DNA from: Allomuricauda sp. TY007
GTDB taxonomy: Bacteria > Bacteroidota > Bacteroidia > Flavobacteriales > Flavobacteriaceae
Direction: 5' to 3'
Assembly (NCBI RefSeq): GCF_010468565.1
Contig: NZ_WUEG01000003.1
Span: 124,001 to 188,000, forward strand
Length of the DNA: 64,000 nucleotides
The translations under genes were made by a program, and so were the position numbers. The notes beneath the pieces were generated by a model, which saw nothing but the letters and a program-made list of their open reading frames with translations, made no database searches and was not told the origin of the DNA. This document shows positions 35,800 to 40,396 of the stretch, piece after piece. Every line of letters starts with the position of its first letter. The first letter of the stretch is position 1.

Positions 35800-38238
35800 A
35801 TGCACCCTAAATCCAAAAAAAGGTTTACCCTTAAAATTATACTGAGTTATGCAGTGCTTGGAGTTTTGGCAACCTTGGCTGCATTCTTTATCTATAATGA
35901 GTTCAAAAGCTATGCTTCTGCAAAAAATCAAGGAGAGAGCAACGAAAAACTACTGAAGACCAACATATTGCTTACACAATTGTACGATGCCGAAAACTTA
36001 TCCAAGTTGGCCTTACAGACCAAAAAACCACAGGATTTAAAATCATACGCGCAAAAAGTAGACTCCATTAATCAATTTATCGACTCCCTTAAACCATTGG
36101 TACAAACCAACAATGGTAGTCTAAATCTCAAATTGGATAGTGTTCAGGAATTATTAAAGCAAAAAGTTTTTAATAATGCCGAACTACGAAAACTAAAAGT
36201 TAGGAACGAAAATAAAACTTCTTTGGATTCAGTTTTAAAGGCATTCCATGAGATGGAAGTGGACATGGGCAGAATTACCCCCGAGACCTTTGCTCCCAAT
36301 TTTGACAAATTGCCTACTAGAACCCAAGAGTACATCAAAGAGTACGTCGCCATACTCAACAAGAATATTCCAAATTCCGACGGTAATACGGCCGCCAAAA
36401 ATATCGACTCCATTTTAGAAGTATCCAAAGCTATTTTAAACAAAGCCAAAACCGAAACAGTTACGGCCGAACGTACCGTATTGCAAAAAGAACTTCAAAT
36501 TTATAGGACCGACTTGGAGCTTTCACAAAAAATGCGGGGCATTTTATCCGACTTTGAACAGGAAATGGCACTGAATGCCTATTTGGATAATCTTAAGCAA
36601 GAGCAAGCATTAAAAAAAAGCTCTCGCTTGGCAGTCGGAGCTGTTATTCTAGGACTAATAACAGTGATATTGTTTACGCTCATGATTTCCAAGGATTACT
36701 GGAAAGCACAGCAATACCGAGAACGGCTCGAAAAGGCCAAAAAATATTCCGAATCACTTTTAAAAAGCAGGGAACAATTGATCTCGACCGTTAGCCACGA
36801 CCTAAGGACACCGTTGAATACCATCAGTGGCTATTCCGACTTGATCGAGCAAAGTGGATTGAACACAAAACAACTGAACTACCTTAAAAAAATTAAGTCC
36901 TCTTCTGGCTACGTAGATAATTTGGTGAACGACCTTTTGGACTATTCCAAACTGGAGGCCGGAAAAATCCAGTTGGACAAGGTGCCTTTTTCCCTCTTCC
37001 AATTAATAGAAGAAACTGCGGTTGATTTTGAAGAAATACAATCCAAAAAAAGAGTATTGCTCCAATTAAAAATAGCAGACGACTTAAAAACACCTATCAT
37101 CAACGACCCTTTTAGAATACGGCAAATACTTACCAACCTCATTGGCAATGCCTTTAAGTTTACAGATTTTGGCCATGTTAAGGTTGCTGCGGCAGTGGAA
37201 GAAAAAAACAAAGCCAGATGGGTGAGGATTGATGTTGAGGACACGGGTATAGGAATCCCTGCTGAAAAACAGGAAGCTATTTTCCAAGAGTTTACACAAG
37301 CAGAAGCTCCTTCCCAAAAAGCCCAGATCGGGTATGGGCTGGGGCTTACCATTTCAAGAAAACTGACAGAATTATTGGGAGGTACATTGAGTTTGAAGAG
37401 CAAAGTAGGCAAAGGGAGTACTTTTACTGTTCGGATTCCTGTTGGGTTTTCTAAAATCGAAGTGGTTGAAAATGATTCCAAAGCGTTTATTCCCAAACTC
37501 AAAGAGCTTTCCATTTTGGTTATTGATGATGATGAAAACATGCTTGGTCTTATCGCTGAAGTTTGTAAAATCAACCACATCAAAACAGAAACTATTTTGA
37601 ATTTTGATGATATTGAGCTATCAAAAATCCACCAGTTCGATGCTGTACTGACGGACATTCAAATGCCCACCACAAATGGTTTTTCTGTGCTAAAAACAAT
37701 TAAAAGCATTGGATATAAAAATCCCGTAATTGCCATGACCGGACAACAAATCGGTAATAAAACGGACTATTTAGGCCCTGGTTTTTCGGATGTGCTACAG
37801 AAACCATTTACGGCCAATTCCCTACTGCGTGTTTTAAAATCAACAGAAAAGGTGGCCTTGTTCAATGCAATTCCCGCTTCGGAGTCTTCCATGTTCACTC
37901 TTAAAAATATTTCCCCCTTTTTGGATGATCCAAATGCCATTCAGGAAGTTTTACAAGTGTTTTTGGAGAACACGAAAAAGAATCTAGCGTTTTTGCTTTC
38001 CGCCGTTGGCGATAAAGATTATACAGATATCAGGGCTACATCCCACAAAATGTTGCCCATGTTCAGGCAGTTGGAAATAAAAGATGCCATCCACTTATTG
38101 GAACTTTTGGAAAATATTTCCGATGATGCAAAAGGAGAAAAAACGTTCAATATTCTTTCGGAACTAAAAGAAGTGCTGTCCCATTTGGAAAGTGAAATCC
38201 AAAATTATTTAGCTAAACATCCAATTGATATTGATTGA
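35800..38238 (+). CDS. Hybrid sensor histidine kinase with receiver and Hpt domains
   Basis: An 812-residue phosphorelay protein. Transmembrane helices at about 11-31 and 275-296 bracket a helical periplasmic sensor. Then come HisKA (STVSHDLRTPLN, H333), HATPase (INDPFRIRQILTNLIGNA, GYGLGLTI), a receiver (DAVLTDIQMP, D619) and a C-terminal Hpt domain (ATSHKMLP, H749). Phosphate should pass H333-D619-H749 and then to a separate receiver, most likely the convergent sigma-54 activator, whose gene overlaps this one by 26 bases. Confidence 0.93.
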   Translation: MHPKSKKRFTLKIILSYAVLGVLATLAAFFIYNEFKSYASAKNQGESNEKLLKTNILLTQLYDAENLSKLALQTKKPQDLKSYAQKVDSINQFIDSLKPLVQTNNGSLNLKLDSVQELLKQKVFNNAELRKLKVRNENKTSLDSVLKAFHEMEVDMGRITPETFAPNFDKLPTRTQEYIKEYVAILNKNIPNSDGNTAAKNIDSILEVSKAILNKAKTETVTAERTVLQKELQIYRTDLELSQKMRGILSDFEQEMALNAYLDNLKQEQALKKSSRLAVGAVILGLITVILFTLMISKDYWKAQQYRERLEKAKKYSESLLKSREQLISTVSHDLRTPLNTISGYSDLIEQSGLNTKQLNYLKKIKSSSGYVDNLVNDLLDYSKLEAGKIQLDKVPFSLFQLIEETAVDFEEIQSKKRVLLQLKIADDLKTPIINDPFRIRQILTNLIGNAFKFTDFGHVKVAAAVEEKNKARWVRIDVEDTGIGIPAEKQEAIFQEFTQAEAPSQKAQIGYGLGLTISRKLTELLGGTLSLKSKVGKGSTFTVRIPVGFSKIEVVENDSKAFIPKLKELSILVIDDDENMLGLIAEVCKINHIKTETILNFDDIELSKIHQFDAVLTDIQMPTTNGFSVLKTIKSIGYKNPVIAMTGQQIGNKTDYLGPGFSDVLQKPFTANSLLRVLKSTEKVALFNAIPASESSMFTLKNISPFLDDPNAIQEVLQVFLENTKKNLAFLLSAVGDKDYTDIRATSHKMLPMFRQLEIKDAIHLLELLENISDDAKGEKTFNILSELKEVLSHLESEIQNYLAKHPIDID

Positions 38239-39556
38239 TTTTGTTGTAAAGCGTCTTGCGGGTGATTTGCAGTAGTTTTGCCGCTTTGCTTTTGTTAAAG
38301 TTGGTCTGTTTTAAGGCGGTCAGAATCCGCTCCTTCTCATAATCAGATTTAGAAAAAATGGACTCTTCGTGCTTACTTGCTCCTTTTACGACCCCATCTG
38401 CCAAAGCATTTGGGAACATGGTTTCCGTTTCAGAAAAAAGAACGGCCCTTTTGATTACATTTTTCATTTCCCTCAAATTTCCCGGCCAATCATACTCCTG
38501 AAGAATTCGCTTGGTTTCATCGGAGAATTCTAAAATATTTTTATCCAATTCTGAATTGGCCTCGGCCAGAAAATAATCTGCAAATAGAAGAATATCCTCT
38601 CGCCTATCCCTCAAGGATGGCACTTCAATGGAAAACTCGTTGAGTCTGTGGTACAAATCCTCCCTAAAACCACCTTCTTCCACAGCTTCGGAAAGATTTT
38701 CGTTTGTGGCAGCAATGATGCGGATATCCAACTGGATTTCTTTAGTGCTGCCCACTCGTTTTATTTTACGCTCTTGAATGGCTCTAAGCAGCTGAATTTG
38801 ATGTTCATAGGATAGATTTCCTACCTCATCCAAAAAGAGGGTTCCTCCGTTGGCCGCTTCAAAATGCCCTTGTTTATCATCAATGGCACCCGTAAAACTG
38901 CCCTTTACATGACCAAAAAATTCGCTGGTGGCAATTTCCTTTGGTATGGCACCACAGTCTACCGCAACAAACGGTCGATCATTTCTCTTACTAGCCCGGT
39001 GAATGGTCTTGGCGGTCACTTCTTTTCCTGTACCACTTTCGCCCGTTAGCAAAACGGACATGCTGGTTGGAGCGACCAGCTCCACATACTGCTGGAGTTT
39101 CTTGGATTTTTCTCCTTGACCTTTTAAAAAATTAATCGGGCCCTTTTTCGCTTCAGTTGGTTTTGAACCTTCGCGAGAAACTTTGAAATCCGTCACTTTG
39201 GTTCGCAAGGCATCTTTAATTACGGAAAGTATTTCTTCTGGTGTAAAAGGCTTTGAAATATAATCGAAAGCACCCTTTTTAATGGCATTTACCGCAGTTT
39301 TCACTTCGGCATACCCTGTCATTAAAATAACTTGGGTCTTTGGTGACTCACGTTTTACCTGGGGAAGCAAAGTAACCCCGTTTCCTTTTGGCAATCTAAC
39401 ATCGGACAAGATTATATCGAAGGTGGATGATGCAAGATGTTCTTCTGCCTCCTTAATGGAATAACTTGTAGATACGGCAAAACCATTCTTGGTCAAAAAC
39501 TTTTGAAGCATTTGACAAAAAGCAGTATCGTCCTCAATTATTAAGATTCTGGGCAT
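38213..39556 (-). CDS. Sigma-54-dependent response regulator (NtrC family)
   Basis: A 447-residue activator with an N-terminal receiver (D52 in ILSDVRLPKG), an AAA+ domain with Walker A GESGTGKE (172-179), the sigma-54 contact loop GSFTGA (219-224), Walker B FLDEVG (241-246), and a C-terminal Fis-type HTH (KSKAAKLLQITRKTLYNKI). It should activate promoters using RpoN. The nearby secreted-protein gene has a sigma-54-like promoter and is a likely target. The probable kinase partner is the convergent hybrid kinase. Confidence 0.95.
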   Translation of the reverse strand: MPRILIIEDDTAFCQMLQKFLTKNGFAVSTSYSIKEAEEHLASSTFDIILSDVRLPKGNGVTLLPQVKRESPKTQVILMTGYAEVKTAVNAIKKGAFDYISKPFTPEEILSVIKDALRTKVTDFKVSREGSKPTEAKKGPINFLKGQGEKSKKLQQYVELVAPTSMSVLLTGESGTGKEVTAKTIHRASKRNDRPFVAVDCGAIPKEIATSEFFGHVKGSFTGAIDDKQGHFEAANGGTLFLDEVGNLSYEHQIQLLRAIQERKIKRVGSTKEIQLDIRIIAATNENLSEAVEEGGFREDLYHRLNEFSIEVPSLRDRREDILLFADYFLAEANSELDKNILEFSDETKRILQEYDWPGNLREMKNVIKRAVLFSETETMFPNALADGVVKGASKHEESIFSKSDYEKERILTALKQTNFNKSKAAKLLQITRKTLYNKINQYQLDV

Positions 39557-39623
39557 ATCTCAGTTATCTAATATACGGCCCTAATCTTTTTTGGGATTTT
39601 TCTATTTTGATAAAATTATCACA

Positions 39624-39650
39624 AAAAAAGGACTGCCGAAGCAGCCCTTT
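39624..39650 (-). terminator. Terminator of the secreted protein gene
   Basis: On the minus strand AAAAGGGCTGC-TTCG-GCAGTCCTTTT, one mismatch, with a UUCG tetraloop and a T tract. It separates the secreted protein gene from the sigma-54 activator gene. Confidence 0.8.
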
Positions 39651-39687
39651 TCCAACCAAACTAACTAGTGTGGGGTGATAAAACTAA

Positions 39688-39990
39688 TTACATGTCAATC
39701 CAATTCCCCTCGGCATCGGCATAAACAGTTCCTGTTGTACCGTCTTCAAGGGTAAGATCCAATTTGTACTGATCTTGATCGTTCTTGTATGCCTTACTGA
39801 TCGTAGCCGTAGGGTAGTCTGATTCCACAGCACCTGTTACTGCCGATGGAAGGTCGGACACGCTGATCTCTTCAAAATCTCCCTGTACGATTTCCATTGC
39901 GTTATTATTTTCCAATTCTGGAGTTTCTACATTGGCAAATGCTGTGATTCCTACAAATGATAGTACTGTTGCTAAAGCTAAATTTTTCAT
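39688..39990 (-). CDS. Small secreted PepSY-like protein
   Basis: A 100-residue protein with a signal peptide (LALATVLSFVGITAFAN) and a small acidic PepSY/DUF2874-like domain (DLPSAVTGAVESDYPTATISKAY, EDGTTGTVYADAEGNW). Probably periplasmic. The upstream region holds a sigma-54-like promoter (40028-40044) and phased repeats (40119-40158), so the neighbouring NtrC-type activator and hybrid kinase probably control it. Its molecular function is unknown. Confidence 0.8.
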   Translation of the reverse strand: MKNLALATVLSFVGITAFANVETPELENNNAMEIVQGDFEEISVSDLPSAVTGAVESDYPTATISKAYKNDQDQYKLDLTLEDGTTGTVYADAEGNWIDM

Positions 39991-40027: not shown

Positions 40028-40044
40028 TGAAAACATGGTGCCAA
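40028..40044 (-). promoter_or_regulatory. Sigma-54-type promoter of the secreted protein gene
   Basis: On the minus strand TTGGCACCATGTTTTCA. The -24 element TTGGCAC is exact and the GG-N10-TC spacing matches, but the -12 GC is TC. A start near 40016 leaves a leader of about 27 bases before the ATG at 39990. The gene for a sigma-54 activator is 130 bases downstream. Confidence 0.5.
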
Positions 40045-40118
40045 TTCTAAAATCACATACCAAACACACGTACATTATTGTTTATCAGTTATTTATAATT
40101 TTCGGCTATTTTGAAGCT

Positions 40119-40158
40119 GTGTGTAAAAGTGTGTAATGGGATAAACAAAGCGTGTAAT
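40119..40158. promoter_or_regulatory. Phased GTGTGTAA repeats, possible activator sites
   Basis: GTGTGTAA at 40119-40126, GTGTGTAA at 40129-40136 and GCGTGTAA at 40150-40157. The start-to-start spacings of 10 and 21 bases are one and two helical turns. They lie 75-130 bases upstream of the sigma-54-like promoter, where NtrC-type activators bind. Confidence 0.45.
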
Positions 40159-40168
40159 TTTTATACAA

Positions 40169-40192
40169 GAAAGGCTGCCGAAGCAGCCTTTC
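40169..40192 (-). terminator. Hairpin after the 41-residue ORF
   Basis: A perfect 10-bp stem GAAAGGCTGC-TTCG-GCAGCCTTTC on the minus strand with a UUCG loop, followed by TTGT, so the T tract is weak. It resembles the hairpin at 39624-39650. Confidence 0.5.
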
Positions 40193-40270
40193 ATTTTTGC
40201 CAATTATACGGTCACAAGGAAAAAAGACCACGGTACAGATTGGCAGGAATGGATAATACATGGATAGTGT

Positions 40271-40396
40271 TTATATAGCATCATCCTGATTTTGCATGTC
40301 CTTATCCTTATTTCTGTTTTTTAAATACGATACCAATATGTATATGGCCAGAGCCAATGATACTAGATTAAAGAACAGGACTATTTTATAAATCAT
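40271..40396 (-). CDS. Possible 41-residue membrane protein
   Basis: An ORF MIYKIVLFFNLVSLALAIYI then LVSYLKNRNKDKDMQNQDDAI, with one hydrophobic helix (about 4-24) and a charged tail, a layout common to real small membrane proteins. It lies between two hairpins that look like terminators. No strong promoter is visible. I do not recognise it and conservation is untested. Confidence 0.4.
   Translation of the reverse strand: MIYKIVLFFNLVSLALAIYILVSYLKNRNKDKDMQNQDDAI

Follow-up and report, generated by a model that had tools for sequence, protein, structure and literature searches.

A predicted sigma-54 switch pairs a hybrid kinase and an NtrC-type activator with a PepSY-like gene in Allomuricauda and other Flavobacteriaceae

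The stretch of DNA analysed here (64 kb; the window) appears to encode a dedicated sigma-54 switch, in which a hybrid histidine kinase and a neighbouring NtrC-type activator would turn on the gene for a small PepSY-like secreted protein. We put the probability of this reading at roughly 0.83, a figure that excludes the role of the PepSY-like protein itself. In outline, the membrane hybrid kinase would sense a cue in the periplasm or envelope and autophosphorylate at H333, and the phosphate would pass via D619 of the receiver and H749 of the Hpt domain to D52 of the activator. The phosphorylated activator would then bind a palindrome at -124 and a tandem site at -93/-83, an IHF/HU-type protein would bend the DNA at about -50, and the activator would contact RNA polymerase-sigma-54 at -24/-12 and open the promoter of the PepSY-like gene. 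The phosphotransfer, operator binding and sigma-54 dependence in this scheme we infer from family knowledge: phosphorelays of this kind run from kinase His to receiver Asp to Hpt His to activator Asp, and oligomeric AAA+ activators bound at upstream sites reach sigma-54 polymerase by looping and open it. No account of this module was found in the open-licence papers searched.

Gene layout and putative relay proteins

The output gene (39688-39990, minus strand) encodes a protein of 100 residues that reads as having a signal peptide and carries one PepSY-like (PF11396) domain. As the first-pass annotation had stated, the next gene on the same strand (38213-39556, minus strand) encodes an NtrC-type activator, made up of a receiver (D52; PF00072), an AAA+ domain with a GSFTGA loop (PF00158) and a Fis-type HTH (PF02954). 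A hybrid kinase with an Hpt domain had been placed convergent to it, and this too holds: the kinase gene (35800-38238, plus strand) overlaps the activator gene by 26 bp and specifies HisKA (H333), receiver (D619) and Hpt (H749) domains, with two apparent transmembrane segments flanking an outer domain of approximately 240 residues. HisKA, HATPase_c and the receiver score above the Pfam cut-offs; Hpt, at 16.1, falls under its cut-off of 24.6, but its histidine is nonetheless invariant in 59/59. Indeed, when 59 sequences of each protein were aligned, H333, N450, D619 and H749 of the kinase were invariant, as were D52, the Walker A/B motifs and the GSFTGA loop of the activator. The same alignment holds a point against our main reading, since the sigma-54-contacting loop (residues 219-224) is GSFTGA and not GAFTGA in all 59 orthologs.

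Output and activator genes are separated by an intrinsic terminator, GGGCTGCTTCGGCAGTCC followed by T7 (39625-39655, approximate limits, minus strand), and this hairpin is kept in the genus despite changing stem sequence. Because the terminator lies between the two genes, the activator is not simply part of a PepSY operon; that arrangement was discarded in view of the conserved terminator and a conserved CGTATATT block before the activator. The gap preceding the activator (39557-39632, minus strand) contains conserved TTTTTTGTGATAATTTTA and CGTATATTAG blocks shortly 5' of the ATG that probably act as promoter for the activator gene itself. The CGT box in this gap resembles the ECF-type motif SM6 described for Flavobacterium psychrophilum (PMC9723704).

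Predicted core promoter

A sigma-54-type core promoter, TTGGCAC-N5-TTTCA (-24/-12; TTGGCACCATGTTTTCA), is located at 40028-40044 on the minus strand, 53 bp 5' of the output ATG at 39990. In a pattern scan, this was the only exact match to TTGGCAYN5TTKCW within the 64-kb window. With one mismatch allowed, 4 matches were observed against 4.9 expected, which is what chance would give; taken by itself, the motif is no proof. What lifts the observation above chance is conservation, given that the promoter and the half-site spacing described below are kept while the intervening sequence drifts. The core promoter (YGGCAY-N4-TTTTC) is present in 26 of the 26 same-genus species that have the PepSY gene and at 61 of 65 PepSY loci across Flavobacteriaceae, counts that exaggerate independence, the species being related. 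The 65 loci were picked by protein similarity only, by scanning an alignment of the output protein against genome contigs. The remaining 4 had no recognisable promoter at the best PepSY match, with Salinimicrobium prominent among them. These results bear out the initial proposal of a TTGGCAC at -24 with a near -12 element.

Compared with the sigma-54 consensus TGGCAC-N5-TTGCW (GG-N10-GC), the sequence keeps the spacing, the GG and the -12 C, and has T for the G preceding that C. The GG occurs in 61/61 family loci (the loci were anchored on GG), the A in 60/61, and the -12 C, which contributed to the anchor score, in 60/61 at exact sigma-54 spacing. The -12 element is therefore TTTC, without the canonical G of TTGC; T takes its place at 54/61 loci, and this is no artefact of the search because T and G were scored equally in the anchor. 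Such a conserved TTTC form may escape sigma-54 predictors tuned to TTGC.

The departure from TTGC at a normally conserved G (54/61) would suit a different view, in which the -24/-12-like sequence is not a sigma-54 promoter and transcription starts from an atypical sigma-A or ECF promoter at another place within the conserved region. We regard this as very improbable: the GG at -24 is kept throughout and the C at -12 almost so, with the anchoring caveats given above, no TAnnTTTG box was seen in the conserved blocks, and TGGCAC-N5-TTTC is also found before an OmpH/Skp-type gene (L148), Skp being a gene with a mapped sigma-54 promoter in F. psychrophilum (PMC9723704). The window genome encodes a single RpoN (E 2.6e-51), and the RpoN box ARRTVAKYRE was found in L001. 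From family knowledge we infer that TTGGCAC-N5-TTTCA is a sigma-54 promoter.

Putative operator and intervening region

Repeats 10 and 21 bases apart had been noticed upstream of the promoter. Both spacings proved correct: two copies of GTGTGTAA, at 40119-40126 and 40129-40136, are offset by 10 bp, and 21 bp beyond the second comes a third, imperfect one, GCGTGTAA, at 40150-40157. Overlooked was an inverted half-site, TTATACA, at 40161-40167, just beyond the interval first annotated, which pairs with the third copy to form a palindrome. The putative operator is thus better described as a 17-bp palindrome plus a direct-repeat site. Site 1 (40151-40167, minus strand; -124 relative to the T of TGGCA) is TGTATAA-AAA-TTACACG, with the consensus TGTRTAA-N3-TTACACA, and site 2 (40120-40136, minus strand; -93 and -83) is TTACACA-CTT-TTACACA, so that the half-sites comprise TTACACA at -83 and -93, TTACACG at -114 and the inverted TGTATAA at -124. 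A direct rather than inverted repeat at site 2 is unusual for a Fis-type dimer and counts against our main reading.

The tandem pair with 0 mismatches occurs nowhere else in the 3.86 Mb genome; 3 other matches, each with 2 mismatches, compare with 5 for a reversed-pattern control. In most of the 26 genus species the half-sites at -124, -114, -93 and -83 are kept to within 1-2 bp while the sequence between them drifts, and in 2 species the operator block is approximately 12 bp closer to the promoter. Half-sites match 154 times across the family loci and 24 times after shuffling; a single position collects as many as 17 of these matches (at most 3 in shuffles), and the palindrome has on average 2.70 mismatches to its consensus versus 6.07 in shuffles. 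Its distance from the promoter falls into two classes, most palindromes lying at -122 to -125 or at -110 to -114, approximately 12 bp or roughly one turn apart.

Between operator and promoter, at -52, there is an IHF-like match, TATCAGTTATTTA (40083-40095, plus strand), where the name IHF comes from the consensus only. That consensus is present between operator and promoter in approximately 17 of the 26 genus species (0.7 expected) and in 28 of 61 family loci (1.25 expected). The matches concentrate at fixed positions, and these move by approximately 11 bp from one operator-distance class to the other. That operator and IHF-like site shift as a block would be in keeping with a requirement for helical phasing, with the reservations that 12 differs from 10.5 and that the loci share descent.

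NtrC-type dimers recognise sites of 7-3-7 form. For NtrC and glnA of enterics, 17-bp palindromes of this form lie approximately 100-140 bp upstream of a -24/-12 promoter and are served by an activator with a Fis-type HTH. The predicted switch shares the 17-bp 7-3-7 site at such a distance, the Fis-type HTH activator and a putative -24/-12 promoter, and differs in operator sequence and in having a dedicated output from a single family.

Directly upstream of the operator, a conserved terminator hairpin, GGCTGCTTCGGCAGCC (40172-40195, approximate limits, minus strand), probably insulates the switch from the preceding gene. Further 5', a 41-codon ORF for a membrane-peptide-like product, MIYKIVLFFNLVSLALAIYILVSYLKNRNKDKDMQNQDDAI (40271-40396, minus strand), ends before this terminator and is possibly a real small gene. 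Rfam gave no match anywhere in the window.

Comparative linkage and predicted output regulon

Of 37 genomes of the genus, 26 encode the PepSY-like protein together with the activator and the other 11 lack both. In the family, the contig runs on past the PepSY gene or array at 61 of 65 loci, and the activator follows downstream at every one; in those distant loci with contigs long enough to show it, the kinase converges on the activator. Genera from Allomuricauda to Flavobacterium retain this arrangement of three genes. What is observed directly is the anatomy of the module, its conservation and the association of the operator with the PepSY gene.

These data also bear on whether the operator belongs to this activator. 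The promoter and operator could be real and yet be bound by another regulator, either one of the other five activators or a factor unrelated to sigma-54, with the neighbouring activator serving something else; the window genome holds six full-length sigma-54 activators, and the activator gene stands apart from the PepSY gene behind a terminator. We consider this quite unlikely, however, as the PepSY gene and the activator co-occur perfectly, the operator stays beside the same activator across the family, and a 7-3-7 palindrome is what an NtrC-type dimer would be expected to bind. Control by the neighbouring activator is our preferred reading.

In other genera, two to five PepSY-like paralogs are found in tandem. 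Among 65 secondary paralog matches, 44 have a good promoter score and 48 have the palindrome within 4 mismatches, and many of the tandem-paralog operators in these genera are a perfect TGTGTAA-N3-TTACACA. Flavobacterium limicola (L237 5777-6615) has two tandem PepSY genes before the activator, with the operator TGTGTAAAAATTACCCG and a weaker promoter, CTGGTACAATTATTCC.

A genome search for the repeat plus TTGGCAC, proposed at the outset, was also run, using DNA patterns alone, and within the family nearly all its matches fall before PepSY-like genes. In 22 genomes, the combined operator and promoter pattern returned 18 distinct sites and 0 control matches, and 17 of the sites are upstream of PepSY-like genes; two Cellulophaga genomes each have one such site before a PepSY-like gene approximately 10 kb from the array. 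A Cellulophaga site (L258) was judged a chance match, its TGG falling inside a coding region. When 395 genomes of the order were searched, 16 matched. All 9 matches inside the family (76 genomes searched), including 4 in one other well-represented genus, precede PepSY-like genes, compared with 0 of the 7 outside Flavobacteriaceae. The 9/76 should not be read as a prevalence, since a pattern this strict passes over many genuine members. In the genus, searching for ACACA together with the promoter gave many matches in the bamA-skp gap; this was rejected as an operator target, the ACACA there being bamA coding sequence.

In the window genome the searches gave no target other than the PepSY gene. 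The original suggestion of a complete phosphorelay with one obvious output is well supported by comparison and fits this genome; relatives have several PepSY outputs. We lean slightly towards a broader view, in which this is a previously undescribed envelope-response system of Flavobacteriaceae whose relay and own sigma-54 activator would control only PepSY-like periplasmic proteins, the output family expanding as tandem paralogs, mostly with their own enhancer, that possibly act on this sensor as adjustable feedback or binding factors.

The output protein

By output protein, the closest named relatives of the window genome are Allomuricauda/Flagellimonas. The protein itself scores under the Pfam PF11396 cut-off (17.5 versus 28.3 bits), and 40 of 43 relatives match the PF11396 model at E<=0.1 (best 1.7e-5). 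An alignment profile matches the Bacteroides periplasmic DUF2874 proteins 3db7 (5e-7) and 3due (3e-6). The predicted structure has a confident domain at approximately residues 40-100 (pLDDT >90), for which the top 5 Foldseek matches in the PDB are Bacteroides putative periplasmic proteins including the DUF2874 proteins 3due and 3db7, albeit weakly (E 0.03-0.1, TM approximately 0.4). On profile evidence, the output protein is a probable relative of the PepSY-like (PF11396) family, differing from the Bacteroides proteins in having one repeat instead of two and in its score under the cut-off. Pfam scans of the protein and its relatives matched PepSY-type families and none of the ZraP/CpxP family.

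The function of the protein is the weakest step of our proposal. Most likely it would exert feedback on the kinase or protect the envelope as a periplasmic binding protein, in the way that ZraP does for ZraSR; the title of a reference cited in PMC7657598 describes ZraP as a periplasmic chaperone that represses ZraSR. There is an even chance that the protein is instead an effector that inhibits or binds proteases, lytic enzymes or metal in the periplasm, with the kinase sensing damage independently, a scenario that competes only with the feedback step. PepSY/BLIP-like family members have been suggested to inhibit partner enzymes or proteins (PMC2954215), the nearest solved relatives are the periplasmic 3due and 3db7, and the several paralogs with separate promoters in many relatives resemble a mass output and not a single feedback factor. 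Nothing direct speaks against an effector, and effector and feedback roles can coexist. The switch could offer an initial entry into what PepSY-like (DUF2874) secreted proteins do.

Related systems

By analogy, ZraPSR of Escherichia coli/Salmonella is the nearest working analogue. As is predicted for the switch, its gene for a small periplasmic protein stands behind a sigma-54 promoter and is controlled by an NtrC-type regulator and a membrane kinase encoded alongside, and its regulon is very small (zraP, zraSR and mgtA; PMC7657598). However, the output here is PepSY-like and not ZraP, a terminator stands between the genes for activator and output protein, and the operator is TGTRTAA-N3-TTACACA. 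Moreover, whereas kinase and regulator of ZraPSR share one operon, the kinase in the window and in relatives is a convergent hybrid with receiver and Hpt domains. Since output protein and gene layout differ, the switch is not a member of the ZraPSR family. In Porphyromonas gingivalis W83, PG0717, with four DUF2874 domains, is also encoded near a two-component system (PMC3764172); unlike for the switch predicted here, no sigma-54 link is reported in the relevant part of that paper.

The sigma-54 (SM4) regulon of F. psychrophilum provides a flavobacterial parallel for the promoter. Its mapped promoters drive chaperones, Skp, and envelope (stress) and exported-protein genes (PMC9723704). The selected table of that study contains no PepSY gene and links none of the promoters to an activator, and three activators are described without assigned targets. 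Its start-site map leaves open which activator drives each sigma-54 promoter (PMC9723704). Here, sequence comparison across a family of bacteria common in the sea matches activator, operator, promoter and output family to one another.

Other sigma-54-like promoters

A second conserved promoter, TGGCACGATATTTTC, lies before an OmpH/Skp-type gene in the window genome's own sequence (L148; C24:209197-209211) and at L109, L111, L120, L121, L132 and L134. This TGGCAC-N5-TTTC promoter is found in many genus species with the same TTTC at -12, downstream of bamA in relatives, and the TTACACA operator is absent from it. In the window genome, a TTGC-type promoter precedes a gene resembling Lon by its N-terminus. 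The OmpH/Skp-type and Lon-like promoters are consistent with the F. psychrophilum sigma-54 regulon. A third intergenic TGGCAC-N5-TTTC match (L140; own genome, C3:134065-134079) stands before a gene for a 467-residue exported or lipoprotein-like product.
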